From Desulfocapsaceae bacterium (GTDB lineage: Bacteria; Desulfobacterota; Desulfobulbia; Desulfobulbales; Desulfocapsaceae): 64,000 nt of DNA. The position numbers and the translations under genes were made by a program. Numbering within the stretch: position 1 is the stretch's first letter; each line of letters begins with the position of its first letter. The stretch is from contig JARLHL010000010.1 in assembly GCA_031292275.1 (NCBI GenBank), forward strand, positions 1 to 64,000, in the 5' to 3' direction. The notes below the pieces were generated by a model. It saw only the letters and a list, made by a program, of their open reading frames with translations. It made no database searches and was not told the DNA's origin. Below are positions 23,401-63,848 of the stretch, piece by piece.

Positions 23401-26400
23401 CAGCTGTCTGCGGGAAGCTCTCCAATGGGTCGCCTGAACTGTCCATTCCAATAGTCCGCGTCGGGAGATCAGACTCCGGTACCAGATCCGGATAATGGCA
23501 TCCAGGGTCACAGCCGTCTGGTGCGGCAGCAGGGCGGCATCGGCCATCGCCCGCAGCAGGTCGTGCCCCATCTTTGACAAAGAAAGGCATTTGAGCCCTT
23601 TAATGGTAGTGGCCATGGTGAAGGGCTGGGCCAGCGGATGGAAGAGCAGCTGTATACAAACTACCAGTGTGGCGCACGCTCCGATGCGCGGAGAAACGAG
23701 CCATGAGCAAACCAGCAGGCCCAAGCTGGTGGCGGGCAACAAACTGCGACGCAGGTTGTCGAGGATCTTCCAGCGGTCCAAGAGGGAGAGCGGGTTCTTT
23801 TCCCGACCGCCGCCAGGAGAGGAAACATAAGGGAGAAGCCAACCTGCAATCTGCCAATCCCCGCGCACCCAGCGATGAGCCCGGCTGGTATAGCTTTGAT
23901 ACCCTTGGGGAAAATCATCGAAGAGTTCAATGTCACTGGCCAGGCCCACCCGAACGTGTGCCCCTTCGATCAGGTCGTGACTCAGTACCGACTCTTCCGG
24001 AAACCGTTCCGACAGCACCCGGCTGAAGGCGCGGACGTCGTAGATACCTTTACCCTGGTATGATCCCTCACCGCTGAGGTCCTGATAGACATCGGAGACA
24101 GCCTCGGTGTAGGGGTCGATACCGACTGCATCGGCAAAGAGACGACTGAATGTCGAGATGCTTGTGCTGGTAAGGGTCGGGCTCACCCGCGGCTGGATGA
24201 TGGTGTATGAGCCGGCCATGACCCGTCCACGCTCATCAAAACGCGGTTGATTGAGGGGGTGCGCCAAGGTCTCGATCAGCCTGCGGGCGGTTGCGTGCGG
24301 CAATTGGGTGTCGCTGTCCAGGGTGATGATGAAACGGACATCCGTAAGATGATCAGAGTTCCCCACATGGACCAAGGGGGGCGAGTTCTCAGGCCGTGTG
24401 CCATCGATCAGACGGTTCAACTCCTCCAGTTTGCCCCGTTTACGCTCCCAGCCGATGAATTTCTGCTCGGATTTGCTCCAGGTGCGCTCACGATGAAAAA
24501 GGAAAAAACGCTCGCCGCCATGGCGCTGGTTGAGGGCGGCCATGTATTCCCTCGCGGTCCTCAACAGGTGGCTGTCATCTTCACGCGAAGGTGCTGCTGA
24601 ATCGGCGTAATCTGAAAACAGGCTGAAGAGCAGATTTGCTTCCTTGTTGGCAAGGTAGCGGATCTCCAACTTTTCGACTTCAGCCCGGACGGTCTCCGTA
24701 TCCGCCAGCAACATCGGCACGACCACCAGGGTGCGGAAGGCGTCAGGGATCCCCGAGGTTTCGAAATCCATTTTTGGCAGCGGGCGGGGCGGTAGAAGCC
24801 GGGTAGCCAGGTAATTGGCCACCTCGATTGCCAGTTGACTCACCGGAATCAGCAGGAGCAGCACCAATCCGGCAAAAACAACAGGCGCCCTTGCGACCGG
24901 GTTAAACCCTGGTGTCAGGGCAAAATGGGCGGCAAGAAACACGAACAAGGCAAAAAATCCGCCGATACCACAAAAATAGACGGCGGTGTGATGGCCGTAG
25001 ATCCATGCAAGGAGGCGATAACGGTATGCCTCACGGAATCCGAGTAAACCTGCCAGTTCTGCCCGTCCCTCTCCGATAAGCCAAGTGCCGACGTGGCCGC
25101 AACGCTCAATTGAAGGCGATGCACGGTAGGCATCAGTTGCCAGTTTAAGGATGTATTCCGCGACCTCTTCCTCTGTCCGGGAGGCGGCATGGGATATCTC
25201 TTCAATCCCTTTCCGGCAGCGGTCACGAGTTGCAAAATCCATTTCCGGATAAATTCCGGATGGATCGAAGCGCAATATCTGCTCCACCCGGCTGAGTTTT
25301 TCGAAGATTTCCCGCCAATCGAGCAGGGCGAGTTGGCGCAGACTGGTAAAGGCATTGCCGCAGGCCAACTGTTCGCTGGTCTGCCGATTCTGTTCACGCA
25401 GGATGAGATCATGGTAGGGAATTTTGAGTATGCGCTCAAGCCAACTCTGGATCGGCAGTAACGCTGCGGCCTCATCGTAGAGCATGCCAATCAACTGTAC
25501 GCCGAAATACGGGCTTGGGTGTGGCTCCGAGGCAGCAAGTTCCGCTAGAATGGCGAAGAGCTGGTTCGAATCACGGCGATTGGCGGCGATCAGCCGATTG
25601 GCCCAGAAATCGGCTAATTGACGATCGCGAAGATCCGCCAGGGCGGTGACAGCCAGGCTCTGTATGCTTTCTATAAGGGCAATGCGCAGCATCTGGGGAA
25701 TTGCCCAAAGTTCGCCGATGCTCAGCGTTCGCACGGATTGGTGGGCATCGATAAAGTCCAGAACATTCTCCCGATCCAGATGCAGCTCAAGATGAGAAAC
25801 AAGATTCTTGGCCAGACCATAGATGCAGGGCATGCCCCGATAAGGCTCCGAGGCTAAAATCGGCAACTGTTGGTAGAAACGCAGGGGAAGGTTCAGCAGT
25901 ACATCTCGAATATTTCCTTCAAGGATGTATTCATTATCCAATATCCAATCCGCAGCCGGGGTTGCCTTTTGTTCCAGTCGGCTTGCCGCGGTGAGATCCG
26001 CACAAACCTGCCGGACCCACATTCTCGACTGTTTGAGACGCTTGAGCAATTCGGTGGTGCGGTGTGGAATTTGATCTACCTGCTGCTCGCCTGCATGGCG
26101 CTTTGCATGTTCCTGAATTTGTTTTGGAGAGAGTTTTACCGCCAGTTCCCTGGCTTCCAGACGTCGTTCATGTCTGGAATGCAGGACAAAAAGCGCAGGA
26201 GAGATATCGCCGCATTCCCGTAATTGAGCCATCGGCAGCGGCAAGAGCTCAATGGGCGCATTGAGGATAAGGACGGACTCTTTCGGCACGAGCCAGCGGG
26301 CGTGATTTCGCATCATGCTGACATTCACGCCAAACTTTTCACGTCGAAACCATGTGAGAAATACCAGCGCGCCGATGGCGGCAAAGACCGGAATAATCGC

Positions 26401-26667
26401 GAAGGAAGAGGAGATATACCAGGCAGGAACTCCCTGGAGCCGGTTCAGACAAAAAGCGGCTATACCGGCGCATCCTCCGGATAGAATGGCTGCAAGGCTT
26501 GTCCCGAAAGCCCGACGCCTGGAGAACGGGTCTACGGTATGGATTGCTCCGTCAGAGCCTTTATGTATAAGTACGGCGGCCTTGAAGCCTTGCCGCGCGA
26601 TTTTCCGAATGGATTTCCTCGCTTCATCCTGTCCGGCGAAATAACAAATAAGAGTAGTCAGGTTCAA
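17482..26667 (-). CDS. ndvB: Cyclic beta-glucan synthase (NdvB/Cgs type), 3061 aa
   Basis: This giant membrane enzyme should make cyclic beta-1,2-glucan from UDP-glucose. In order it has an N-terminal region with two helices near 52-110, a longer membrane segment near 550-630, a GT84-type transferase with TLDSDTQLPHATA near 782 and HRWVRGDWQ near 930, more membrane helices, a glycoamylase-like domain (GYFEAMDFSRQ near 1667) and two tandem GH94 modules, the last with GTGDWNDGMNLVG near 2736 for chain-length control by phosphorolysis. The start is a TTG at 26667 with AAAGGA ahead; I see no better ATG. It is G/C-rich relative to its flanks. Cyclic glucans act in osmoadaptation and surface interactions; that role here is inferred. 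Confidence 0.9.
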   Translation of the reverse strand: MNLTTLICYFAGQDEARKSIRKIARQGFKAAVLIHKGSDGAIHTVDPFSRRRAFGTSLAAILSGGCAGIAAFCLNRLQGVPAWYISSSFAIIPVFAAIGALVFLTWFRREKFGVNVSMMRNHARWLVPKESVLILNAPIELLPLPMAQLRECGDISPALFVLHSRHERRLEARELAVKLSPKQIQEHAKRHAGEQQVDQIPHRTTELLKRLKQSRMWVRQVCADLTAASRLEQKATPAADWILDNEYILEGNIRDVLLNLPLRFYQQLPILASEPYRGMPCIYGLAKNLVSHLELHLDRENVLDFIDAHQSVRTLSIGELWAIPQMLRIALIESIQSLAVTALADLRDRQLADFWANRLIAANRRDSNQLFAILAELAASEPHPSPYFGVQLIGMLYDEAAALLPIQSWLERILKIPYHDLILREQNRQTSEQLACGNAFTSLRQLALLDWREIFEKLSRVEQILRFDPSGIYPEMDFATRDRCRKGIEEISHAASRTEEEVAEYILKLATDAYRASPSIERCGHVGTWLIGEGRAELAGLLGFREAYRYRLLAWIYGHHTAVYFCGIGGFFALFVFLAAHFALTPGFNPVARAPVVFAGLVLLLLIPVSQLAIEVANYLATRLLPPRPLPKMDFETSGIPDAFRTLVVVPMLLADTETVRAEVEKLEIRYLANKEANLLFSLFSDYADSAAPSREDDSHLLRTAREYMAALNQRHGGERFFLFHRERTWSKSEQKFIGWERKRGKLEELNRLIDGTRPENSPPLVHVGNSDHLTDVRFIITLDSDTQLPHATARRLIETLAHPLNQPRFDERGRVMAGSYTIIQPRVSPTLTSTSISTFSRLFADAVGIDPYTEAVSDVYQDLSGEGSYQGKGIYDVRAFSRVLSERFPEESVLSHDLIEGAHVRVGLASDIELFDDFPQGYQSYTSRAHRWVRGDWQIAGWLLPYVSSPGGGREKNPLSLLDRWKILDNLRRSLLPATSLGLLVCSWLVSPRIGACATLVVCIQLLFHPLAQPFTMATTIKGLKCLSLSKMGHDLLRAMADAALLPHQTAVTLDAIIRIWYRSLISRRGLLEWTVQATHWRASRRQLLFVARLAFGSLFSSIVGFTISFVRPESLLLASPWLGLWFFSPLLGWLLNLRPVEQKGDKTLPEADRRLLRQVARRTWRYFSAFVNGDTSWLPPDNYQVAHQDRLAMRTSPTNIGLWMASALGAHDSGYLTIDQVIERLTRTVETIGRLERYQGHLLNWYDIRTLVPLEPRYVSTVDSGNLLGSLWALKQGLVELMHAPLLDGKAFAGLADTGEVLRQAVKETRDNQTLDALLHAWNALPQDFNHLLSLLDRTSTEIESVAAAATTPWMKELEEQVEAWRSIADRYLGWIRVLAEKTEQELSPLGEAAVAAIGRDLSRAPTLIDLAQGKIDSVQLLTEVRQKSPETCPALVAWLDRLIAAFATAQWLAGETLGKAEQLLVNIKSLSAGMDMRFLYAPKRKLFAIGYNVSTNRLDNSSYDLLASESRLGSFIAIARGDVPLEHWFSLSRPYGAIGRQRILLSWTGTMFEYLMPLLFHRSYGGSLLGKAARDAVMVQIAYGRAHHVPWGISESAFADLDQDKTYQYRAFGVPALGLKRGLEEQPVVAPYATLLALSLAPGMAVQNLRHLAGYDLLGDYGYFEAMDFSRQSQRDPSGKDRKRGVVIKAYMAHHQGMAFLALTNFLHDNPFPRRFHGDPRVRAFEALLQERIPSLPPLHLISTRPNEPVLMGHDLVAPAGTVFSTPHTPIPRCLLLSNGRYGLMITNSGGGYSQWKGRELTRWRSDPTCDSHGTFCYIHEADSDRLWSATYHPVGGKLDVYAVDFTLDRATFKRTDNGISVETEVIVSPEDDVEVRRITLSNRSVSPRRLSLTSYIELSMAQHNADRQHPAFNKLFIQTEALPQYEALLAWRRPRGENDPPLYVAHCLLPLDKDAANRDKKEWQFETDRSRFIGRGHTLARPMGAMQDLGCSQGFVLDPILSLRQTITLEPGKRAQFCLVLVAGESREKVLLLLDKYSAPHATERAMDFAWHSAQQQLRMLRIQPDEARRFQQLASHLLFPNALLRASAKHLEDNRKGQAGLWPYGISGDWPLVLITVGEAREINLVRQMLQAHTYLRMHGLSTDLVILNEEKGGYEHPLLERLEQLIQIHSLSAATDRAGTIFLKNATQIPDEDQKLLKAVAAIVLVAARGTLPRQLGLPLEVPELLQTIARKRVHREPSSPLPFMELNYFNSLGGFTPDGREYAIYLGPGTNTPAPWVNVIANPSFGTMVSETGAGFTWYGNSQRNRLTGWSNDPVLDPTPEALYIRDEESGAFWSPTAAPIREDTAYRARHGAGYTVFEHNSNGIEQELTVFVPVNESSGQPIKLQRLQLTNASPERRRLSITYYVELTLGENRETSQMHSTTRWVDEVQAMLAQNHYHPDYGDRVTFVAITPPAESYGGDRTAFIGRNRSLAQPLAMELRHLSQRTGAGLDPCAALRVTLDMAPGEQRDVVCMLGQAESAAQARELVLRYREDLAVEDALDYTKTWWDDQLGTIQVHTPELATDLLVNRWLQYQSLSCRLWGRSAFYQSGGAFGFRDQLQDVMAFLYTSPELARDQIIRAASRQFSEGDVQHWWHEPLGAGIRSRISDDLLWLPYVVAHYVRTTGDMDILHAEIPFLNTAILAYDQHEQFSTPEITFECATLFEHCRRAISRGLTIGPHGLPLMGTGDWNDGMNLVGAEGKGESVWLAWFLCDCLQGMAELATLMRQPELGRTYQEERTALIQRVEQSGWDGAWYLRGTFDDGTLLGSAANTEARIDSLPQSWALLSGAAEPGRAGQALESAWQHLVCEDDGLVLLFTPPFDHSLPSPGYIKGYPPGVRENGGQYTHAALWMAMAMARKGDGERAVKLLRMLNPIEHARDAAAVWHYGVEPYVIAADIYRLPGRIGQGGWSWYTGAAAWMYRAWIEEVLGLQIRGNTLRIHPVIPSSWPGFSLRYRHGEAVYEIQVENPDGCGHGVAWVEMDGRRVAGGLILLEPGLTKHRVVVRMGGIRKTG

Positions 26668-51069: not shown

Positions 51070-53907
51070 ATGGAAAATGCACAGGGCAATGCGCCTTCGA
51101 AAATCGGCAGACGGTCTTTCCTCAAGCTGGCAGCCATCGGCGCAGGTATCGGCGCCGCATCGGCATTTACGGCGGGAAAATCGCTCCGGGCCGCAAGCGC
51201 GGAGGAAATAAAAAATCCGTTTCCCGGCTCGAAGCGAGTGAAAACGATCTGCAGCATCTGCTCTGCCGGATGCGGCATTATCGCGGAAGTGCAGAATGGG
51301 GTCTGGGTTCGTCAGGATGTCGCTCAGGATCACCCGATAAGTCAGGGAAGTCATTGCTGCAAGGGCATTGACCAGATCGATTTGATCAAGAGCAAGCAGC
51401 GCGTCAAATTTCCCCTTAAGAAGGTGAACGGCGAGTGGAAGAGGATCACCTGGGACCAGGCGGTGGATGAAATTTCCGCCAAGATGCTGAAGCTGCGGGC
51501 GGAAAACGGACCCGATGTCGCAATGTTCCTGGGTTCTGCAAAATTCAATCTGCAGCAGGCCTATTATTTCCGGAAATTTACCGCGATGTGGGGCACCAAC
51601 AATATCGACCACGTGGCGCGCGTCTGACACTCCGCAACAGTCGCCGGTGTGGCGAACACGTGGGGTTATGGTGCGATGACCAATCATTTTGGCGATGTTG
51701 CAGGACACTCGAAGCTGATTTTCATAATAGGGGCGAACTCGGCTGCGGCCAATCCCATCGGCATGAAGCATTTCCTGCAGGCCAGGGACAGGAATAGCGC
51801 CCAGCTTGTGGTTGTCGATCCGGTATTCACCAAAACAGCTGCCAAGGCAGATCATTATTTACGAATCCGGACCGGCACCGACGTTGCCTTTATCTATGGC
51901 CTGCTCCATGTCATCTTCAAAAACGGCTGGGAAGATACGGACTTTATCAACGCCAGGGTCTACGGGATGGATGACATCAAGGCCGAGGCCGGCAAATGGA
52001 CTCCGGAGCTCACCTCCGATGTCACCGGCATTCCCGCGGACAAGATTATCCAGGTTGCAACGCTCCTGGCGAAGACAAAACCAGCCACCGTCGTCTGGGC
52101 TCTGGGCATCACCCAGCACAGTACCGGCACCTCCAACACCCGGATTCTTCCCATTCTGCAGCTGGTCCTGGGAAACATGGGCAAAAACGGCGGCGGCTGC
52201 AATATTATCAGGGGGCATGACAATGTCCAGGGTTCAACGGATATGTGCTGCCTTGCCGACAGTCTGCCCGGATATTACGGACTGGATGAAGGGCCGTGGA
52301 AGTATTTCGCGAAATCCTGGGGGGTTGATTACGAGTGGCTCAAGGCCAGATTCGCCGCTCCGGAGTGGATGACGGCCAAAGGCTTTTCCCTGGCCAAATG
52401 GTGGCAAGGCGTCCTGCAGGAAGAAAAGACCTACTCATCCAGCCCGATACGGGCGCTCTGGGTCCAGGGCAACGGCATTACGTCAATGACCCAGACCGCA
52501 AAGGTTCAGGAGGCGCTGGACAAGCTCGACCTTCTCGTCATTGCCGACCCCTTCGTCAACGAGGCGGCCGTCATAACGCATCAAAAAGATAATATCTACA
52601 TCCTGCCGGTGGCAACGCAGTTCGAGACGGAAGGAAGCGTCACCGCGACCAACCGCTCGGCCCAGTGGCGGAGCAAGGTCGTTGAGCCGCTTTACGAGAG
52701 CAGGCCCGACCAGGAAGTCATGTTCGCCTTCGCCAAAAAGTTCGGCTTCTACGATGAGCTGACCAAGGGCATGAAGATGGGCGTCAAAGACCGCCAACTC
52801 ACCCATGTCAAGGACACCTTCTCCTGGCCCGACGACGCCTCTTTAGAGATCGCGCGCACTATCAAAACCATAGGATGCGACGGCTGGACCCCTGAGCGGC
52901 TCAGGAAGCATCAGGAAAACTGGGATATGTTCGATCCCGGCACTCTTCTCGGGAGCGGACCCGTGGCCGGAGAGTATTACGGGCTGCCGTGGCCGTGCTG
53001 GGATGCGAAACATCCCGGAAGCCCAGTCCTTTATGATATCGGGACCGCGGTGAATGAAGGCGGCATGGGTTTCAGAAACAGGTTCGGTCTCGAGCACGAG
53101 GGCGTCAGTCAGCTGCCCGATCGGAGCGTCACGGTAAAAGGCTCCCGCATTACGGGGGGATATCCCGAAATCACCAAGGAAAACATCGAGACGGTTCTCG
53201 GTATTCAGCTCAGTGCCGAAGAAAAGGAGAGGATGGGGGCCAACTGGAAAGTGGATTTCAGCGGCATCATCCAGGAAAAGTGCAGAGAAGCGGGCGTTGC
53301 GCCCTACGGCAATGCCAAGGCCCGGGTCAAGGTCTGGGAATTTCCGGATCCCGTGCCGCTCCATAGGGAGCCGCTCCATTCTTCGCGGCCGGACCTTGTC
53401 GAGAAATATCCCACCTATGCGGATCAGAAAAATAACTTCCGCGTCGCGGTCAGATTCATCTCCGAGCAAAAGGCCCAGGAATGGGTCAAGGACTTTCCGG
53501 TCATGCTTGTAACCATGCGGGTGGTCAATCTGAGCGGGGCGGGGATGCTGGAGAGAACAAGCAAATACCTGTCGCATATCACCCCGGAGATGTTTGCGCA
53601 TATTCATCCCGATCTGGCGGCAGGCAAGGGTCTTCGCGATGGGGATATGATGTGGCTCCATTCCCCGCAGGGGACGAAAATCAAGGTAAAGGCGAAATTC
53701 AGCAGCACCGTCACGCCCGATAGAATTGCGTTGCCGTACAATTTTGCCGGCGTAATGCAGGGCGTGGATATGAGCTCGAACTACCCTGACGAAACACGGC
53801 CCTATGCGGTTGGTGAAAGTTCCAACACCATCACCAATTACGGATTTGATATCATAACGCAGATCCCTGAATATAATGCGGGACTCTGCCGCATTGAAAA
53901 GGCATAA
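51070..53907 (+). CDS. fdhA: Formate dehydrogenase catalytic subunit, selenoprotein (Sec186)
   Basis: One gene read through an in-frame TGA at 51625-51627 as selenocysteine, 945 residues. GAGAGGAGGAACG precedes the ATG. It has a Tat leader (GRRSFLKLAAIGAG), a 4Fe-4S site (CSICSAGCGIIAEV with a later Cys in SHCCKG), then ARV-Sec-HSATVAG, the signature of Sec formate dehydrogenases, and a C-terminal dinucleotide-binding domain (LVTMRVVNLSGAGMLERTSK). It holds bis-MGD with Mo or W and oxidises formate to CO2 at the periplasmic face. Both halves are in the same frame with strong homology across the TGA, so this is not a frameshift. FdhB and FdhC follow. Confidence 0.95.
51628..51660 (+). promoter_or_regulatory. 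SECIS element of fdhA
   Basis: Thirteen bases after the TGA a stem TCGCC (51641-51645) pairs with GGCGA (51651-51655) around the loop GGTGT. The distance from TGA to the loop (18 bases) and the GGT at the loop start equal those in the Escherichia coli fdhF element as I recall it. SelB should bind here. Confidence 0.85.
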
Positions 53908-54492: not shown

Positions 54493-55389
54493 ATGAAAAA
54501 ATATTGGTTTGTCCTTATCACCTCCTTACTTGCGGCGTCGATTGCATCTGCAGCTGACAGCCGGATCTGGGGAGGGATGATCCTTGCAAATATCCTGGCC
54601 TACGGACAGGAGCATGCAACGAGGCTGGGTCCTCTGTTCACCACCTTGCAGGCCTTCTATTTCAGGAAGATATTCGCGGGGGTCCTCCTCTGTGTCCCGG
54701 CCGCATTCCTCGTCCATTATCTTGTGCTGGGGCAAAAGGTCTTCTCGCATGACGGAGAGAAAATCTTCGTCTTTTCAGTGTTCAAAAGACTTGTGCACTG
54801 GCTGGCCGCCCTTGCCTTCATCATCCTTATCCCCACGGGGCTGATGATGGTATTCGGCAGATATCTGGGCGGCGGGACGCTTGTCGCGACCGCACGGCAC
54901 CTGCATGGGGTGGGCACCGTGGTCTTTCTTGTCGCGGTAATCCCGATGTTCCTGTTTTGGGTGGCGGAAATGCTGCCGACCCGGGACGATATGCGCTGGG
55001 TTCTGATGGCAGGCGGGTACCTGAGCCGTGCAAAGCAGGAAATTCCGGCCGGGAAATTCAATGCCGGTCAGAAAATGTGGTTCTGGATGGTCACTCTCGG
55101 AGGATCAGGGATGATTGCAACGGGAGCGGCATTGTACCTGCAGGATTTCGACTACGGAGCGGCATCCCTTCTCGGGCTGTCGCAGATCGATCTGCTGCGG
55201 TTCTGCGCCATCGTTCACAATTTCCTGGCCATGGCGATAATCGCTAATTTCATCACGCATGTCTATATGGCGCTATTTGCGATCAAGGGCGTCATATCCA
55301 GCATGATAACCGGCTACAAGGAAGAAGAGGAGGTACGGTTTCTTCATAGTTCCTTTTACAAAAAGCTGAAGGGACAAAGGCAGGTATGA
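54493..55389 (+). CDS. fdhC: Formate dehydrogenase cytochrome b subunit
   Basis: The 298-residue protein starts at the ATG at 54493, with a GTG just before it as an alternative. It has a signal-like N-terminus and about four further membrane helices, with likely haem ligands in RLVHWLAALAF, TARHLHGVGTVVF and AIVHNFLAMAI plus NFITHVYM. It anchors FdhAB in the cytoplasmic membrane and passes electrons to quinone. It is the last gene of the fdh operon. Confidence 0.92.
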   Translation: MKKYWFVLITSLLAASIASAADSRIWGGMILANILAYGQEHATRLGPLFTTLQAFYFRKIFAGVLLCVPAAFLVHYLVLGQKVFSHDGEKIFVFSVFKRLVHWLAALAFIILIPTGLMMVFGRYLGGGTLVATARHLHGVGTVVFLVAVIPMFLFWVAEMLPTRDDMRWVLMAGGYLSRAKQEIPAGKFNAGQKMWFWMVTLGGSGMIATGAALYLQDFDYGAASLLGLSQIDLLRFCAIVHNFLAMAIIANFITHVYMALFAIKGVISSMITGYKEEEEVRFLHSSFYKKLKGQRQV

Positions 55390-55425
55390 CTTATTATGGC
55401 GGTCGGAGCATTGAAATCAGTCGTG

Positions 55426-55602
55426 TTCAATTCCTCTGGCCGCCGAGTTTGAACGGGAATTAATATGTGAACGTACAAAGCAGGGCTGGCATCAACTCCT
55501 GTACGATGGAGATCGGGCAGAGCACCCTGTAAAATGACTATGGCAAAATTACCCCTTGCCATGGCTGCAATTGAACAACCGGAAACTAAGGTTGGATATT
55601 TA
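55426..55602 (+). pseudogene. Serine recombinase (resolvase/invertase) C-terminal relic
   Basis: One frame reads AEFERELICERT and, after a frameshift, KAGLASTPVRWRSGRAPCK then MAKLPLAMAAIEQPETKVGY before a stop. This matches the linker and start of the DNA-binding part of Tn3-type resolvases (FERELIRERTKAGL... ETKVGDL). The catalytic domain and the helix-turn-helix end are missing. It marks an old mobile-element insertion between the fdh operon and the reductase cluster. The rest of the spacer to 55693 holds nothing recognisable. Confidence 0.7.
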
Positions 55603-55693
55603 TGACCTTATCCTGAGATATCTGATCAGGATATCTTTACTTGGCAAATGGCGAGGCCATTAACGCCCGGTTTGTCTGTCTCCACCTCCTCGT

Positions 55694-56611
55694 TTAGGCA
55701 TTTTCTACGTATGACATTTCGCTGGTGGCCACCTGACGCAGATTTATGATATCCTTCAGCGGTGGCAGGCCGAATAACCGGCTATACTCACGGCTGAATT
55801 GTGAGGGGCTCTCATAGCCGACCTGAAACGCCACGGTTGTTGCATCCAGACGCTCCGTCAGCATCAACCGCCGGGCTTCACTTAAACGCAGCCATTTCTG
55901 GTATTGCAGTGGGCTCATGGCCGTCAATGATCGGAAATGATGGTGGAAGGTCGAGGTGCTCATATTGACCTGCGATGCGAGGTCGTCGATATGTAACGGC
56001 CGTGTGAAATTATCTTTCAACCAATGGATGGCACGCGCTATCTGATGACTCTGACTTCCCACCGCCGCCATTTGTCGTAAACGAGTACCTTGGTCGCTTA
56101 CAAGCAAACGGTAAAAGATTTCCCGTTTGATGATCGGAGCAAGGATAGGTATATCCTGCGGCTCATCAAGCAGGTCGATCAACCGCTGGAAAGTGGTGAC
56201 GAGTGGCAATGTGATCTCGCCGGTAGCCATTCCACGATTAGACTGCTGCGTACGCGGCGGGGGAAGATGGCTGTCCACCATCAGTTGTGACATCTCGCGC
56301 TGGTCGAGTTTCAATATAAGCCCCAGACAAGGCTTTTCCGGGCTCGCCTCGATGATCTGTACAACTGTGGGCAGATCGACGGAGGTGATCAAAAAATTTT
56401 GGGCGTCATACACATACGTTTCATCCCCGAGCAATACGCGTTTAGCACCTTGTGTGATCATACAGACGCGGGGTTCATACATAAGGCTCTGGGGTTGGGT
56501 GGGTTCGTCCCTTTGAAAAAGCGACAGGCCTGGGATAACGGTAGTGAGCCGGTCGCCTTTATCGGTCCATCGCGCAATGCTCTTTCCTAAATTTCTGAGT
56601 TCAATTTCCAT
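55694..56611 (-). CDS. AraC-family transcriptional regulator (YqhC-like)
   Basis: The 305-residue protein has an AraC N-terminal cupin-like domain (about 20-170; MYEPRVCMITQGAKRVLLGD, YDAQNFLITSVDLP) and a C-terminal pair of helix-turn-helix motifs (LHIDDLASQVNMSTSTFHHH, AFQVGYESPSQFSREYSRLF). The gene is divergent from the zinc alcohol dehydrogenase gene and near a YqhD-like gene, the same setting as YqhC, which activates aldehyde reductases in Escherichia coli. It probably activates the plus-strand cluster through the shared upstream elements. Confidence 0.9.
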   Translation of the reverse strand: MEIELRNLGKSIARWTDKGDRLTTVIPGLSLFQRDEPTQPQSLMYEPRVCMITQGAKRVLLGDETYVYDAQNFLITSVDLPTVVQIIEASPEKPCLGLILKLDQREMSQLMVDSHLPPPRTQQSNRGMATGEITLPLVTTFQRLIDLLDEPQDIPILAPIIKREIFYRLLVSDQGTRLRQMAAVGSQSHQIARAIHWLKDNFTRPLHIDDLASQVNMSTSTFHHHFRSLTAMSPLQYQKWLRLSEARRLMLTERLDATTVAFQVGYESPSQFSREYSRLFGLPPLKDIINLRQVATSEMSYVENA

Positions 56612-56713
56612 TTTTTTGCCCTCAACTGTCTAATTGAGTGAATGATTAGAAACTAATTTCTTTTGGCTGATAATGCCATATACAATTTCGCGTTACAGCA
56701 ATTATCGATACCT

Positions 56714-56751
56714 CCGGACAATCAGGCAATAAATGAGCAGGATTGATCTAC
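56714..56751 (+). promoter_or_regulatory. Shared 38-bp upstream element, copy 1
   Basis: The segment begins CCGGACAATCAGGCAATAA and ends AGCAGGATTGATCTAC. It matches the element at 58175-58212 at 34 of 38 positions by eye. It lies 113 bases before the zinc alcohol dehydrogenase start and 102 bases before the divergent AraC start. Confidence 0.65.
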
Positions 56752-56864
56752 CGGTCTCTGTCCTTTCCGGATTATTGTATCAGTCATGAGCGAGGTTACA
56801 AATGGTGTGCGCAAAGTCTACGAAGCTATTCGATTGAGTTCAAGATAATAACAGGAGAATCACA

Positions 56865-57965
56865 ATGAAAAAGCCTCAAACAGGAAACACTGCATCCCTT
56901 TACAAAACAAAGGCCTATTCTGCTGCGAGCGAGACGTCACCGCTTGCTGCAACCTCGATTTCGCGGCGTGAGACGACTGATAACGACGTGCAGATCGAAA
57001 TTCTTTTCTGCGGAATCTGTCACTCCGACCTTCATACGGTCCGGAATGAGTGGAGCAGCATCATGCCCACAGTTTACCCTTGCGTACCCGGCCACGAAAT
57101 CGTTGGCCGGGTCACCAAGATCGGTTCCGCAGTCAAGAAATTCAAGCCGGGCGACCTGGCGGGCGTCGGCTGCCTGGTTGACTCAGACCACACCTGCCCC
57201 AATTGCCGGGATGGCCTGGAACAATTATGCCCCAACCAGACCCTCACCTTCAACTCTTTGGACAAACACCTCGGAGGTGTCACCTACGGAGGATACTCCG
57301 AAAGTATTGTTGTCGATGAACACTTCGTTTTACACGTCCCCGCCAATCTCAATCTTGCAGGCGTAGCGCCGCTGCTGTGCGCCGGGATCACGACGTACTC
57401 GCCGATGCGCCGCTGGGGCGATATTAAAGGCAAGAAAGTCGGAGTGGTTGGCCTCGGCGGGCTGGGACACATGGGGGTCAAGTTCGCCCGTGCCTTCGGC
57501 GCTCAGGTCGTGGTCTTCACCACCTCGGAGAACAAGAGGCAGGACGCACTCCGTCTCGGCGCCAATGAGGTCGTCGTCTCCAGCAAGCCGGGTGAGATGC
57601 AGAAACACGCCGGCAGCTTCGACTTCATCCTCGATACCATAGCCGCCGTCCACGACATCAATGCCTATATCAATATGCTCGGCCGCGATGGCAACATCAC
57701 CCTCGTGGGGGCGCCGGAGAAGCCACTTTCAGTCTCTGCCTTCGCGCTTCTGCTTGGCCGCCGCAGCCTCTCAGGATCGCTTATAGGCGGTATCGCCGAA
57801 ACCCAGGAAATGCTCGATTTTTGCGGGAAACACGACATCACCGCCGATGTGGAGGTCATCCCCATCCAGAAGGTCAACGAGGCCTACGAGAGACTGGTCA
57901 AGTCCGATGTAAAGTACCGCTTCTCGATCGATATGGCTTCTCTCAAATCCGAACAAACAGCATGA
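56865..57965 (+). CDS. Zinc-dependent NAD(P) alcohol dehydrogenase (YahK/cinnamyl type)
   Basis: AACAGGAGAATCAC precedes the ATG. The 366-residue protein has the MDR layout: catalytic zinc site CGICHSDLH, PGHEIVGRV, structural zinc loop DHTCPNCRDGLEQLC, and cofactor site VGVVGLGGLGHMGVKFA. It should reduce aldehydes to alcohols with NADPH. The structural loop has an Asp where the first cysteine (usually in VDSC) is expected, leaving three cysteines. It is the first gene after the AraC divergent promoter. Confidence 0.9.
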   Translation: MKKPQTGNTASLYKTKAYSAASETSPLAATSISRRETTDNDVQIEILFCGICHSDLHTVRNEWSSIMPTVYPCVPGHEIVGRVTKIGSAVKKFKPGDLAGVGCLVDSDHTCPNCRDGLEQLCPNQTLTFNSLDKHLGGVTYGGYSESIVVDEHFVLHVPANLNLAGVAPLLCAGITTYSPMRRWGDIKGKKVGVVGLGGLGHMGVKFARAFGAQVVVFTTSENKRQDALRLGANEVVVSSKPGEMQKHAGSFDFILDTIAAVHDINAYINMLGRDGNITLVGAPEKPLSVSAFALLLGRRSLSGSLIGGIAETQEMLDFCGKHDITADVEVIPIQKVNEAYERLVKSDVKYRFSIDMASLKSEQTA

Positions 57966-57983
57966 CCCAGAAAGGAGAAACGT

Positions 57984-58076
57984 ATGAATAACAGGTGTAT
58001 GGTCCGGATTTTCACCAGCCTGGAGGGATCGTCGGAAATCACCTGTGTCATCCTGCAGCCGCAGAAGGATGCGTGA
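57984..58076 (+). CDS. Possible 30-residue ORF
   Basis: AAAGGAGAAACGT gives the ATG a strong ribosome binding site. The 30 codons (MNNRCMVRIFTSLEGSSEIT...) match nothing known to me. It may be a short peptide or the start of a deleted gene. The rest of the spacer contains the second 38-bp element. Confidence 0.35.
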   Translation: MNNRCMVRIFTSLEGSSEITCVILQPQKDA

Positions 58077-58174
58077 AGAGGCATTTGCCGTCCCTCAGCC
58101 GGTCGCGGGAATATCAATTTCCGGTGACTGAGGGGCCTTTCTTCCGCCTTGAATTATAATAATTCCATTTTTGG

Positions 58175-58212
58175 CCGGACAATCAGGCAATAATCAAGCA
58201 GGATCGATCTAC
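58175..58212 (+). promoter_or_regulatory. Shared 38-bp upstream element, copy 2
   Basis: Nearly identical to 56714-56751 with the same orientation and about the same distance (78 bases here) to the next start. It gives the iron alcohol dehydrogenase gene its own control site. Confidence 0.65.
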
Positions 58213-58290
58213 TCACTCTATCCCCGTCATTGCTATAATAACAACATCAACCGGGAATCAACTTTATACAAACTGTAAAGGAGAGCTGTC

Positions 58291-59478
58291 ATGAATTTTG
58301 AATTCCATAATCCGACCCGCCTCATTTTCGGGGCAGGGACCCTCTCTCGTCTAGGTGAGGTGGCCCGCGAGAAAGGCAAACGTGCCCTGCTTGTCACCGG
58401 GGGCGGCAGCGTTAAACGCAATGGTGTATTTGATCGGGCGGTCGCATCCCTGAAAGAAGCCGAGGTTTCAGTCGTGGAGTGCCCCGACGTCGAGCCCAAC
58501 CCAAGAATCGCATCAGTCGCCCGCGGTGCGCAGATTGCCCGTGATGCAAATTGCGATGTCGTTATTGCCATGGGCGGCGGGAGCACTATGGATGCAGCCA
58601 AAGTCATGGCGGCAGCCGTCTATTACGATGGCAATCCCTGGGATATGATTCTTCACGGTCAGGACAATGTGTATGTGCCCAAAAAGGCATTGCCCATCAT
58701 TACCGTACCGACCCTGGCGGCAACCGGTTCGGAGATGAACAAAGGCGCGGTCATCTCCAATGATGAAACGAACGTGAAGTCGTTCATGAGCTCAGACCTC
58801 CTTTACCCGTATGTCGCTCTGGTTGACCCCGAGCTGACCCTGAGTGTGCCGCGGCATCAGACTGCATACGGTGTCTGTGACCTGATCACCCATGTGACCG
58901 AAGGCTACTTCAACGGCATAGACGGCACCCCGATTCAGGACCGCTTTGCCGAAGGCGTCATCCTGACAGCCATGGAATGGGGGCTGAAGGCGGTTGCCGA
59001 TGGCGGTAATCTCGAAGCACGAACCCAGGTTCAGTGGGCCTCCATCGTCGCGCTGAATGGCTGGGTACAGGCCGGGACCAACTACGTCCCTCCTGTACAC
59101 ATGATTGAACACACACTGTCCGCCCACCACGACGTTACGCATGGTGCTGGGTTGGCGATACTCAACCCTGCATGGATGCGTTTTGCCGCCAAGTCCCGTC
59201 CGGCCCGCTTCGCGCAGTTCGCGCGGCGCATCTTCGGCCTGTCGTCGAACGGTCAAAATGACCTGGAGACGGCGAAAGAAGGCATCGATCGCTTCCAGGC
59301 CTTTTTGGAATCGATCGGCTGCCCGACCCGCCTGTCGCAGTTGGGTATAAGTGATGAGAAGTTTGCTCAATATGCCAAAGATACCGTGCTCGTCCTCCAC
59401 GACAAAAACGGTAGACTCCTCGGACGCCCGCCCATGAGTGAGGCGGACATTATCGAGGTGCTGCGGGCGGCATTGTAA
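58291..59478 (+). CDS. Iron-containing alcohol dehydrogenase (YqhD/BDH-like)
   Basis: AAAGGAGAGCTGTC precedes the ATG. The 395-residue protein has the group III fold: MNFEFHNPTRLIFGAGTLSR, the cofactor motif MGGGSTMDAAKVMA, and metal ligands in VCDLITHVTEGYF, HMIEHTLSAHHDVTHGAG. This is closest to YqhD and butanol dehydrogenases, which reduce a wide range of aldehydes with NADPH. A relic of a second such gene lies at 62.7 kb. Confidence 0.92.
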   Translation: MNFEFHNPTRLIFGAGTLSRLGEVAREKGKRALLVTGGGSVKRNGVFDRAVASLKEAEVSVVECPDVEPNPRIASVARGAQIARDANCDVVIAMGGGSTMDAAKVMAAAVYYDGNPWDMILHGQDNVYVPKKALPIITVPTLAATGSEMNKGAVISNDETNVKSFMSSDLLYPYVALVDPELTLSVPRHQTAYGVCDLITHVTEGYFNGIDGTPIQDRFAEGVILTAMEWGLKAVADGGNLEARTQVQWASIVALNGWVQAGTNYVPPVHMIEHTLSAHHDVTHGAGLAILNPAWMRFAAKSRPARFAQFARRIFGLSSNGQNDLETAKEGIDRFQAFLESIGCPTRLSQLGISDEKFAQYAKDTVLVLHDKNGRLLGRPPMSEADIIEVLRAAL

Positions 59479-59536
59479 AGCAGCATTGATCCTGAATATC
59501 AATATCAACGAAAACCTCTTCTTGACTGTGCAGGAA

Positions 59537-60784
59537 ATGAAAGTGACTCCCGTAACTCATTTAAAAAAACAGAGAGCAATCGAAGCCTCGGCAGTGGTCG
59601 TCTCTGGCCCCGGATGGCACGTGCTTGCAGTTTTGAGTATGCTGATGGGGTTTGCTTCGATCTCGACCGATCTTTATCTACCGGCCATGCCTGCGATGGG
59701 CCGTTCGCTCGGCGCCGATACCGGCATGGTCGAACTGACGATTTCAGGTTACCTCATCGGTTTCAGCCTGGGCCAGCTTCTGTGGGGACCGATCAGTGAC
59801 CGTTATGGCCGCCGCCTGTCGGTAGCGATCGGGCTGGTTCTTTTCATGATCGGCTCCGCCGGCTGTGCGCTTTCGGAAAGTGCACAGGTTATGATCGGCT
59901 GGCGTATTGTGCAGGCGCTCGGTGCCTGCGCCAGTGTCGCATTGTCGCGGGCAATGGTTCGCGATCTCTATGAAGGAAGCCGTGCAGCGCAAATGCTGTC
60001 TACATTGATAACAGTGATGGCGATAGCGCCGCTTATCGGTCCGTTGGTCGGCGGGCAGATTGTGGCTTTTGCCGGATGGCGTGCAATTTTCTGGGTCCTG
60101 ATCGGTATCGGTTTCGTGACACTTGCGGCGCTGTTTACAATTCCCGAAACCTTACCCATTGAACGACGCAACAGGGAATCGCTCGGCCGTGCGATGATCC
60201 GTTACGGCGAACTGTTACGCTACCGACGACTGCTTGGTTATGCGGGCACAGGCGGTTTTCTCTACGCCGGGATGTTCGCATATATCGCAGGTACTCCATT
60301 TGCCTATATCAGCTACTACCATGTTCCGGCGCAGCGTTACGGCCTGCTGTTTGGCCTCGCTATCGTTGGCATTATGGTCGTCAATATCTTGAATTCACGT
60401 CTTGTTTTGCGTTTCAGCTATGACAAGATACTGCTCGTCGGCACGATTATCGCTGCACTCGCCGCCGTTGCAACAGCCTTGGCCGCCGGCACCGGCTGGG
60501 GCGGACTGTGGGGGTTGGCCGTGCCATTATTTGTGTTCGCTTCCACAACCGGTTTAATCGTTGCCAATTCGATCACGGGTGCGTTGGCCGACTTTCCGGA
60601 ACGTGCCGGAACAGTTTCAGCGCTGACCGGCGCGGTTCAGTACGGCAGCGGTATTGTCGGTTCCGCCTTGGTCGCTGCTTTCGCCGACGGCACACCCTGG
60701 CCGATGGGCTGGGTTATCGCAATTACCGGGATCTGCTGCCTGCTCTCCATGCTGCTGCTTATGCCGGATAGAACAGGAAACTGA
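59537..60784 (+). CDS. Bcr/CflA-type MFS drug exporter
   Basis: Start set at the ATG at 59537; upstream in-frame codons overlap the preceding gene and have no better site. The 415-residue protein has 12 predicted helices and the MFS motif A (GPISDRYGRRLSVAIGL) with the Bcr/CflA-type start (FASISTDLYLPAMPAMGRSL) and helix-5 region (RAMVRDLYEG). It should export drugs or toxic metabolites by proton antiport. It follows the iron alcohol dehydrogenase closely. Confidence 0.9.
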   Translation: MKVTPVTHLKKQRAIEASAVVVSGPGWHVLAVLSMLMGFASISTDLYLPAMPAMGRSLGADTGMVELTISGYLIGFSLGQLLWGPISDRYGRRLSVAIGLVLFMIGSAGCALSESAQVMIGWRIVQALGACASVALSRAMVRDLYEGSRAAQMLSTLITVMAIAPLIGPLVGGQIVAFAGWRAIFWVLIGIGFVTLAALFTIPETLPIERRNRESLGRAMIRYGELLRYRRLLGYAGTGGFLYAGMFAYIAGTPFAYISYYHVPAQRYGLLFGLAIVGIMVVNILNSRLVLRFSYDKILLVGTIIAALAAVATALAAGTGWGGLWGLAVPLFVFASTTGLIVANSITGALADFPERAGTVSALTGAVQYGSGIVGSALVAAFADGTPWPMGWVIAITGICCLLSMLLLMPDRTGN

Positions 60785-60822: not shown

Positions 60823-61230
60823 ATGAGCGGTAACGATCTCAGCACAAGTGTGATTTTTCCTATTGGAGAGAAATTTGAAAGCCCAAATTTCATCGGAACG
60901 GTTTGGCTCAATATGCTGACCCCATTCGGTTCGGCCCTCCCCATCGCCAATGTGACCTTTGAACCGGGATGCCGCAACAACTGGCATAAGCACGCGGGGG
61001 GGCAAATCCTCCTCGTGACGGGCGGCAGAGGCTATTACCAGGAATGGGGAAAGCCGGCTCGTGAGCTTCATGCGGGAGATGTTGTCACCATCCTCGCCGA
61101 CGTGAAGCACTGGCACGGCGCTGCCAGGGATAGCTGGTTTGTCCATCTGGCCGTTGAGGTCAATCCCGAAAAAGGTCCGGCAACATGGCTGGAGCCGGTA
61201 TCGGACGAAGTGTATACTGCATTGAAGTGA
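60823..61230 (+). CDS. Cupin-domain protein
   Basis: AAAGGAGGGTAATTT precedes the ATG. The 135-residue protein has the cupin motifs GCRNNWHKHAGGQILLVTGGRG and LHAGDVVTILADVKHWHGA, with several histidines for metal binding. It is followed after 12 bases by a carboxymuconolactone decarboxylase-like gene, a common pairing; the joint function is not established. Confidence 0.85.
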   Translation: MSGNDLSTSVIFPIGEKFESPNFIGTVWLNMLTPFGSALPIANVTFEPGCRNNWHKHAGGQILLVTGGRGYYQEWGKPARELHAGDVVTILADVKHWHGAARDSWFVHLAVEVNPEKGPATWLEPVSDEVYTALK

Positions 61231-61242
61231 GGAGGCGCTCCC

Positions 61243-62010
61243 ATGTCCATCAGTGAAACAGCGCAGAAAAATCACGAGGAACTTTTCCCGGATCATACAT
61301 CAACGCTCAAGGTCACCGATCCCGAACTCATCGAAGTGTTCGACAATTTCGCCTTTGACGAAGTGCTTTCTTATGGAAACCTTGATGCCGGAACCAGGCT
61401 CATGGTGATCCTGGCTTCACTGATCGCCCAGCAGACATTAAGTGAATATAAGGTCATGCTTGGTGGTGCACTGAATGTTGGTGTTACGCCGATTGAAGTG
61501 AAAGAGATCGTGTATCAATCCGTCCCCTACGTGGGCATTGCAAAAGCCTTTGATTTTATACATGCCACAAATGAAGTATTAGGAAGTCGCGGCGTGAAAC
61601 TCCCGCTCGAAGGTCAATCAACCACGAATATTGAAACACGATTTGAAAAGGGACTGGCAGTATCAAAGTCGATTTTCGGCAAGATGATTGATGTCATGTA
61701 TGAGCAGTCTCCCGAAAATCAAATGCATATTCAGAAGTATCTCTCGGCGAACTGCTTTGGCGATTACTACACCAGGACCGGGCTCGATATCAAAATGAGG
61801 GAACTCCTCACCTTTTCGATGCTCTTGTCACTTGGCGGATGTGAGCCGCAGTTGAAAGGGCATATTCAGGGAAATGTGAATGTCGGGAACAATAAGAAAA
61901 CATTACTCAGCGTCGTCACGCAGCTGTTGCCTTATGTCGGGTATCCGAGAACGCTGAACGCCATTCGTTGTCTGAATGAAGTCCTGCCGGAAGATGACAG
62001 CAGCAATTGA
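61243..62010 (+). CDS. Carboxymuconolactone decarboxylase/AhpD-like protein, two domains
   Basis: GAGGAGGCGC precedes the ATG. The 255-residue protein contains two related helical domains (DAGTRLMVILASLIAQQTLSE then VSKSIFG..., and KMRELLTFSMLLSLGGCEPQLK). The AhpD-type CxxC peroxidatic pair is absent; only a single Cys (GGCEPQ) lies in the second domain. Activity is unknown; the setting suggests a role in oxidative or aldehyde stress. Confidence 0.85.
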   Translation: MSISETAQKNHEELFPDHTSTLKVTDPELIEVFDNFAFDEVLSYGNLDAGTRLMVILASLIAQQTLSEYKVMLGGALNVGVTPIEVKEIVYQSVPYVGIAKAFDFIHATNEVLGSRGVKLPLEGQSTTNIETRFEKGLAVSKSIFGKMIDVMYEQSPENQMHIQKYLSANCFGDYYTRTGLDIKMRELLTFSMLLSLGGCEPQLKGHIQGNVNVGNNKKTLLSVVTQLLPYVGYPRTLNAIRCLNEVLPEDDSSN

Positions 62011-62068: not shown

Positions 62069-62602
62069 ATGATGAGCGAAAGAAAGAGGCTGATTGCCTA
62101 TTTTTCCCGTGCGGGAAACAATTATGTCGGCGGCGAAATCATGAATCTGCCGGTCGGAAACACCGAAGTGGCGGCGAAGATGATCCAGAAGCTGACAGGC
62201 GGCGATATGTTCCGAATCGAGACGATAAAAAAATATCCGGAAAGCTATGACGAGACAACGGATGTGGCAAAACAGGAACTGCGCCGGAAGGCCAGACCTG
62301 AACTGACAGAGCATGTCGGCAACATGGCGGATTATAGCGTGATGTATCTCGGCTATCCGAACTGGTGGGGAACAATGCCGATGGCGGTATGTACATTCCT
62401 CGAAGAGTATGGGTTTTCAGGCAAGACCATTATTCCGTTCTGTACCCACGAAGGCAGCGGAATGGGATGCAGTGAAAGCGATATCAAAAAGGTTTGCTCA
62501 GAGTCCAAGGTGCTGAAAGGACTGGCGATCATAGGAGGCAGTGTTCAGCGGGCGGAAAATGATATCGCTGCCTGGCTCAGAAACTTGGGTGAAATTGATT
62601 GA
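62069..62602 (+). CDS. Flavodoxin-family protein
   Basis: The 177-residue protein has the FMN-binding start RLIAYFSRAGNNYVGGEIMN, YLGYPNWWGTMPMAVCTFLE and FCTHEGSGMG, the pattern of flavodoxin_4-type quinone or electron-transfer proteins in such stress clusters. A second ATG three bases later is an alternative start. It probably shuttles electrons for the neighbouring reductases. Confidence 0.88.
   Translation: MMSERKRLIAYFSRAGNNYVGGEIMNLPVGNTEVAAKMIQKLTGGDMFRIETIKKYPESYDETTDVAKQELRRKARPELTEHVGNMADYSVMYLGYPNWWGTMPMAVCTFLEEYGFSGKTIIPFCTHEGSGMGCSESDIKKVCSESKVLKGLAIIGGSVQRAENDIAAWLRNLGEID

Positions 62603-62683: not shown

Positions 62684-63848
<1,165 letters not shown>

Follow-up and report, generated by a model that had tools for sequence, protein, structure and literature searches.

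Paired 38-bp elements upstream of two alcohol dehydrogenase genes as probable operators of a YqhC-related AraC-family regulator in a Desulfocapsaceae genome

Genes and Features of the Locus

The window, by which we mean the whole stretch of 64,000 nucleotides that was analysed (contig JARLHL010000010.1 of assembly GCA_031292275.1, Desulfocapsaceae bacterium), contains near its end an AraC-family regulator gene and, on the opposite strand, two alcohol dehydrogenase genes, each of them preceded by a copy of a 38-bp element and the second standing at the head of a longer gene cluster (Table 1).

Table 1. Positions of the regulator gene, the predicted operators, the promoter elements and the neighbouring genes in the window.
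Feature	Position	Strand	Basis or remark
AraC-family regulator, YqhC-like, 305 aa	55694..56611	-	Pfam AraC_N 185 bits, HTH_18 75 bits
Operator 1 (predicted)	56714-56751	+	5' of Zn-ADH; half-sites 56715-56729 and 56736-56750, 21 bp repeat
-10-like TATTGT	56773..56778	+	22 nt after TCTA end of operator 1; sequence
Zn-dependent alcohol dehydrogenase (Zn-ADH), Ahr-like, 366 aa	56865..57965	+	family profiles
Stem-loop between dehydrogenase genes, possible terminator	58090..58136	+	folding
Operator 2 (predicted)	58175-58212	+	5' of Fe-ADH; half-sites 58176-58190 and 58197-58211, 21 bp repeat
-10 TATAAT	58234..58239	+	22 nt after TCTA end of operator 2; sequence
Iron-containing alcohol dehydrogenase (Fe-ADH), YqhD-like, 395 aa	58291..59478	+	family profiles
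Bcr/CflA-type MFS transporter	59438..60784	+	longest-ORF coordinates, overlapping Fe-ADH end
Cupin-domain protein	60823..61230	+	family profile; putative operon member
Carboxymuconolactone-decarboxylase-family protein	61243..62010	+	family profile; putative operon member
Flavodoxin	62069..62602	+	family profile; putative operon member
Aldo-keto reductase	62865..63848	+	family profile; putative operon member

The regulator has the domain order of YqhC, with an AraC_N domain (PF06719) far above the cut-off of 24.2 bits followed by an AraC-type HTH, and its gene diverges from an alcohol oxidoreductase gene, which is the YqhC-type neighbourhood that an earlier note on this DNA had described. It was the only PF06719 protein found in its own genome. 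Because its identity with Escherichia coli YqhC is 32.5%, it is called a homologue here and not a strict YqhC ortholog. The AlphaFold2 model (mean pLDDT 92.5) was matched to full-length ToxT (Z 15.3, rmsd 5.0 over 256 residues) and to the regulatory domain of ExsA (Z 15.1, rmsd 2.6 over 150 residues), and the modelled layout is that of a full-length AraC-type protein, with a predicted cupin-like sensor domain, linker helices and an AraC DNA-binding domain; the solved relatives found by sequence cover only the DNA-binding part.

The best NCBIfam match of the Zn-ADH was Ahr, with 307 bits against a cut-off of 470, and that of the Fe-ADH was PRK15138 ("alcohol dehydrogenase"), which we take to be the YqhD model, with 261 bits against a cut-off of 645. 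Since both scores lie below the equivalog cut-offs, the enzymes are named Ahr-like and YqhD-like only; between the Fe-ADH and E. coli YqhD, identity is 37%. The earlier note had placed the two elements upstream of aldehyde-reductase genes: both genes do encode dehydrogenases, and aldehyde reduction is a family-based prediction for each.

The stem-loop between the two dehydrogenase genes was evaluated within positions 58080-58160 (81 nt), which fold at -30.2 kcal/mol (z -2.73; 2 of 200 shuffles equally good), and it was not among the matches of a simple terminator scan. If it acts as a terminator, the genes behind operator 2 would form a transcription unit of their own, which, judging from gene order, probably includes the MFS transporter gene. 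Between the Zn-ADH gene and the stem-loop, a 30-codon ORF with a ribosome-binding-like AAAGGAG (57984-58076, +) was read by eye and may represent a leader or a small protein.

Elsewhere in the window, a molybdopterin gene (51070-53907, +), presumably formate-dehydrogenase-like, is split into two ORFs by an in-frame TGA that gives ...DHVARVUHSATVAG... and looks like a selenocysteine site.

The Paired 38-bp Elements

The two elements have the same orientation, lie 1461 bp apart and are identical at 34 of 38 positions (89%), and their flanks differ, so the near-identical pair reported in the earlier note, one copy before each dehydrogenase gene, was recovered as described. Of 100 dinucleotide-shuffled versions of the window, none contained a match to the 38-mer pattern with up to 3 mismatches. 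The genome-wide search that the note had proposed was carried out on 4,138,390 bases in 114 contigs (99.98% complete), and just the two window sites matched; no third copy was detected at up to 3 mismatches with either the 38-mer pattern or its 20-base core.

Co-occurrence of the Motif and the Regulator

The core GGCAATAANNNAGCAGGATNNNTCTA, with up to 2 mismatches, was searched in a class set of 257 genomes, the window's own included, and gave 22 sites in 14 genomes, compared with 1 for the reversed control pattern. The regulator was found at E 1e-40 or better in 26 of the 257 genomes, 17 of them with a best homologue at least 53% identical (one, G093, being a 99-aa fragment at 93% identity) and 9 with only 32-38% relatives; the identity cut-off was chosen after the gap between 53% and 38% had been seen. 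The motif was present in 14 of the 17 genomes with a close homologue versus 0 of the 240 others (Fisher P 1.6e-20, a value inflated by kinship, for which it is uncorrected). For a draw of 395 genomes of the phylum, again with the window's genome included, the pattern was revised with broader sites, and 26 sites were obtained in 18 genomes versus 1 for the control; 15 of the 21 genomes with a close homologue (at least 60%) carried the motif versus 3 of the 374 others. The occurrence of the motif in many genomes without the AraC gene, which the earlier note held would speak against its reading, was thus seen in neither set.

Nine genomes with a close homologue (3 in the class set and 6 in the phylum draw) were missed by the patterns. 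In 7 of these 9, the divergent position holds a weaker site, with matrix scores of 21.9 to 47.5, and in G056 a site scoring 20.6 precedes another ORF on the same strand as the regulator, 1.3 kb upstream of it; no recognisable site was found by matrix score for the class homologue in G054 (L038). Among nine phylum loci with homologues of 39-49% identity, five had a site with a score between 10 and 28, and at four (L205, L206, L208, L209) no position exceeded 5.2.

Two genomes stand against a strict rule of site and regulator. A fair site in G484 (L172, 1497-1536, -; score 26.5) precedes an aldo-keto reductase gene whose product is 63% identical to that of the window, with no AraC_N homologue detected at E 1e-40, so either this is an orphan site or the regulator escaped the search. 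In G739, where no AraC homologue was detected, a strong site (49.8) stands at a locus that lacks relatives of the window genes. A further phylum match, in G505 (L174, broad matrix 1.7), is not accompanied by any relative of the window genes and was judged to be due to chance, yet it is counted in the 3 of 374.

Weak sites scoring 8-14 were also noticed near four AraC_N paralogues of 33-36% identity (L045, L047, L053, L054), and other AraC_N branches may share the operator grammar. Divergent operator pairs about 160 bp apart were observed in two genomes (G055:C1:1825495 and 1825652; G063:C41:11071 and 11237); the second site faces the regulator itself in G055, where it may serve autoregulation, and another gene in G063.

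Sites in Other Named Genomes and Their Downstream Genes

The named-genome loci are the best 80 of 584 confirmed, with homologues 48-79% identical, and therefore represent the closest relatives, not a sample. Judging from their names, they include Deltaproteobacteria, Nitrospira, Beta-, Gamma- and Alphaproteobacteria, Acidobacteria-type groups and a spirochaete. With a class matrix built from the 22 class sites alone (threshold 0; maximum on reversed sequences -6.9 over 1.35 million positions), 67 of these best 80 of 584 loci showed a divergent-facing site no more than 600 bp from the regulator, at a median gap of 103 bp, and no such site was found in the other 13. A broad matrix, partly trained on the same loci, detected a site in 75 of these 80 and none in 5. 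In the window itself, the class matrix gave a further weak site at 17525 (score 1.5), antisense within a single 3061-aa ORF (17482-26667, -) that presumably resembles a cyclic glucan synthase; this site was judged to be due to chance, though it lies above the null maximum.

In all, 127 distinct sites scored above 8, and after 4 without an ORF and 2 with very long ORFs (L078, L079) were set aside, 121 first downstream ORFs remained, chosen mechanically and some of them in the wrong frame. Among the first 25 of 44 Pfam families listed for these 121 ORFs were Fe-ADH (18), ADH_N (18), aldo-keto reductase (16), MFS_1 (13), cupin (7), DLH (7), Fer2_2 (5), short-chain dehydrogenase (3), Flavodoxin_2 (2) and CMD (2). 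Relatives of the window's aldo-keto reductase are thus often the first gene behind such an operator elsewhere. Sites with no regulator gene in the 3-kb locus were found, for example, before aldo-keto reductase (L176, L182, L021), Fe-ADH (L023), flavodoxin (L158) and MFS (L180) genes, and also at loci without a relative of the window genes, L015, L024, L159 and L179 among them. Some regulator-bearing genomes, G481 and G603 among them, have further sites on other contigs, distant from the regulator.

Architecture of the Probable Operators and Promoter Spacing

The broad consensus of the element is CGGAGGATCAGGCAAgAAaTnnGcAGGATCGnTCTAcC. When the self-similarity of the matrix was summed over shifts 8-30, it was highest at 21 (permutation P 0.0005 for shift 21, or 0.02 when the best shift of all is taken). 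The self-agreement of individual sites was 47.9% at shift 21, and no other shift between 10 and 30 gave more than 33.5%. Based on this period, the element consists of two direct half-sites two helical turns apart.

In a non-redundant set of 115 sites, obtained by removal of near-duplicates, a -10-like hexamer occurred at an offset of 21 or 22 in 79 (33 + 46, no double counting), and any other single offset accounted for at most 6. The TCTA end of both window copies lies 22 nt before the -10, and the proximal half-site therefore reaches the -35 region; transcription is predicted to start near 56785 and 58246. A half-site that ends at about -35 is in the class II activator position, where AraC-type activators contact RNA polymerase. 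The window thus has the arrangement of class II activator sites, namely tandem half-sites about 21 bp apart, of which the proximal one extends to -35.

The E. coli yqhC-yqhD Spacer and Enteric Loci

When a 12-kb region around E. coli yqhC was scanned on both strands with the class matrix, the top-scoring position fell in the yqhC-yqhD spacer (L001:5233, +). The absolute score of this site, -6.9, equals the null maximum, so the argument is carried by ranking and register. With the broad matrix, whose training included no enteric sites, the E. coli site scored 15.7 versus a maximum of 5.2 in 200 sequences simulated by a first-order Markov chain. The -10 of the yqhD promoter was given as CACAAT in one report (PMC6115493), and the E. 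coli site ends 22 nt before it, as do both window copies before theirs; the operator pattern of the yqhD promoter, at 22 nt from the -10, is therefore also that of the window sites.

An enteric set was assembled from E. coli and 16 further loci with a close YqhC homologue, which came from a search of 197 genomes in the order that contains a Xenorhabdus genome. At 16 of these 17 loci, E. coli included, the site exceeded simulated sequences at P 0.01 or better, and no recognisable site was found with the broad matrix at the remaining homologue (L145). The absence of the motif upstream of orthologous operons, which the earlier note had named as the other observation that would weigh against it, was the exception both in the enteric yqhC loci (1 of 17) and in the best 80 of 584 named-genome loci (13 of 80 with the class matrix). 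When six enteric spacers were aligned, the direct-repeat block, the -10 and a short TCTCCAG at the yqhC end were conserved, and little else.

In published reports, purified YqhC bound only the yqhC-yqhD spacer in gSELEX (PMC8249747), gel shifts placed its binding at the yqhD promoter region (PMC8262776), and a 24-bp palindrome was named as a potential YqhC target (PMC6115493; PMC10991953), a role that it may still have. The yqhD promoter was described there with a SoxS-like sequence (PMC6115493), and within the literature searched, the YqhC target was described as this SoxS-like sequence and the palindrome only (PMC6115493, PMC10991953). YqhC itself, the promoter that it targets and the fact that aldehydes activate it are already known. 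New are the shared operator definition, the half-site period, the promoter spacing, the wide spread and the set of two promoters in the window genome; no such operator definition was found in the literature searched, and the primary YqhC paper, which lies outside that scope, could contain one.

The Sensor Domain

The sensor domains from 128 of 131 loci were aligned (3 were too short, and three genes are probably present twice: L128/L137, L068/L139 and L114/L138). Gly55, Lys57, Pro94, Leu144 and Glu164 occur in all 128 members, and Lys57 of the window regulator corresponds to Lys78 of YqhC. In the AlphaFold2 model, Lys57 lies in the strand 56-61; the alignment used with the structure comprised the window regulator and 68 of the 80 named-genome loci (the best 80 of 584).

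No column of cysteine is invariant, the highest being 54 of 128, and a thiol switch was therefore rejected as the shared sensing mechanism; cysteines in individual members remain compatible with one. One review described the direct action of electrophiles on YqhC as unclear (PMC5297802). We offer tentatively, as a proposal with the odds well against it, that a single aldehyde-stress circuit with a common operator grammar is shared by enterics, Nitrospira, Acidobacteria and the phylum of the window, and that sensing occurs by a reversible Schiff base on Lys57/Lys78. A Schiff base at Lys57 would, speculatively, fit a broad range of aldehydes, and if true, it would explain how one sensor serves structurally diverse aldehydes without a thiol switch. 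A structural role for Lys57 is at least as likely a reason for its invariance. The invariant lysine is a first candidate residue for aldehyde detection.

Proposed Regulation and Alternative Explanations

Taken from the sequence evidence, both 38-bp elements are very probably landing sites of the neighbouring YqhC-related regulator. We consider it highly likely that they are operators of this AraC_N protein, arranged as tandem class II sites through which aldehydes would trigger activation of both promoters. In the proposed mechanism, each half-site would be occupied by one regulator subunit, so that two subunits lie next to each other on the same DNA face; upon a rise in aldehydes, the regulator would most likely activate RNA polymerase at both promoters, and the Ahr-like Zn-ADH and the transcription unit of the YqhD-like Fe-ADH would be made, so that the aldehydes are reduced. 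Physical binding, activation over repression, an aldehyde inducer and the substrates of the enzymes are the steps that we infer. The proposal in the earlier note that the elements are the regulator's binding site and define a regulon is thus supported at the level of sequence, with a regulon that is small here, comprising two promoters.

The strongest alternative, which we regard as possible though improbable, retains the elements as operators of the AraC regulator and lets it act mainly as a repressor, or respond to a signal other than aldehydes, such as a quinone or another electrophile. The MFS transporters (13), cupins (7), DLH (7) and Fer2_2 (5) among the 121 downstream ORFs are in its favour, but no downstream families are more frequent than Fe-ADH, Zn-ADH and aldo-keto reductase, the site abuts the -35 region as class II activator sites do, and E. 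coli YqhC was described as an aldehyde-responsive activator (PMC5297802, PMC6115493).

It is much less probable that the elements belong to a different, widespread regulator and that the link to AraC_N is one of neighbourhood only. Two genomes with a good site and no detected homologue would agree with this, but the site is almost never present without a close homologue, and regulator-bearing genomes also have the distant sites on other contigs mentioned above. Slightly weaker again is the view that the repeat arose by recent duplication, or that it is a mobile or repetitive element of small size that moved together with a promoter, as might be suggested by two near-identical copies within 1.5 kb: no further copies were found in the genome at up to 3 mismatches, the flanks differ, the downstream genes belong to unrelated families, and in other genomes the conserved positions and the -10 spacing are kept while the flanks diverge. 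An RNA function in the leader, as a riboswitch or attenuator, would account for a conserved element upstream of genes and can practically be set aside, since the element lies upstream of the -10 at a nearly fixed spacing and would not be transcribed from that promoter, and no Rfam match was obtained at gathering thresholds in 55300-59600.

Activation of both promoters by the neighbouring regulator thus remains the preferred reading, and the operator definition that comes with it can be tested in a family of aldehyde-stress regulators that is widespread. The E. coli site is in register with more than 100 others, and regulons become readable from genomes.

Comparison With Known Systems

The closest known system is E. 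coli YqhC with the spacer between yqhC and yqhD-dkgA. As in the window, a regulator with AraC_N and AraC HTH domains is encoded divergently from an alcohol dehydrogenase gene, and the site has the same pattern, orientation and 22-nt spacing. The two systems differ in that E. coli yqhC diverges from an Fe-ADH gene, whereas the window regulator gene diverges from a Zn-ADH gene; in that E. coli has one known target promoter, with a published -35 (TTGAGA) overlapping the end of the site, whereas the window has two operators; and in that the window aldo-keto reductase gene, unlike that of E. coli, stands at the end of a longer cluster, the regulators themselves being 32.5% identical. The I1-I2 sites of AraC likewise form a direct repeat with a 21-bp period whose proximal half-site lies at the -35 region, and the window elements resemble these in their tandem 21-bp half-sites and differ in the unrelated effector and in the half-site sequence. 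SoxS and MarA act as monomers and have no sensor domain. The sites of SoxS, MarA and Rob have the AraC-type HTH pair in common with the window system, which in contrast combines two half-sites with a regulator that bears a sensor domain.
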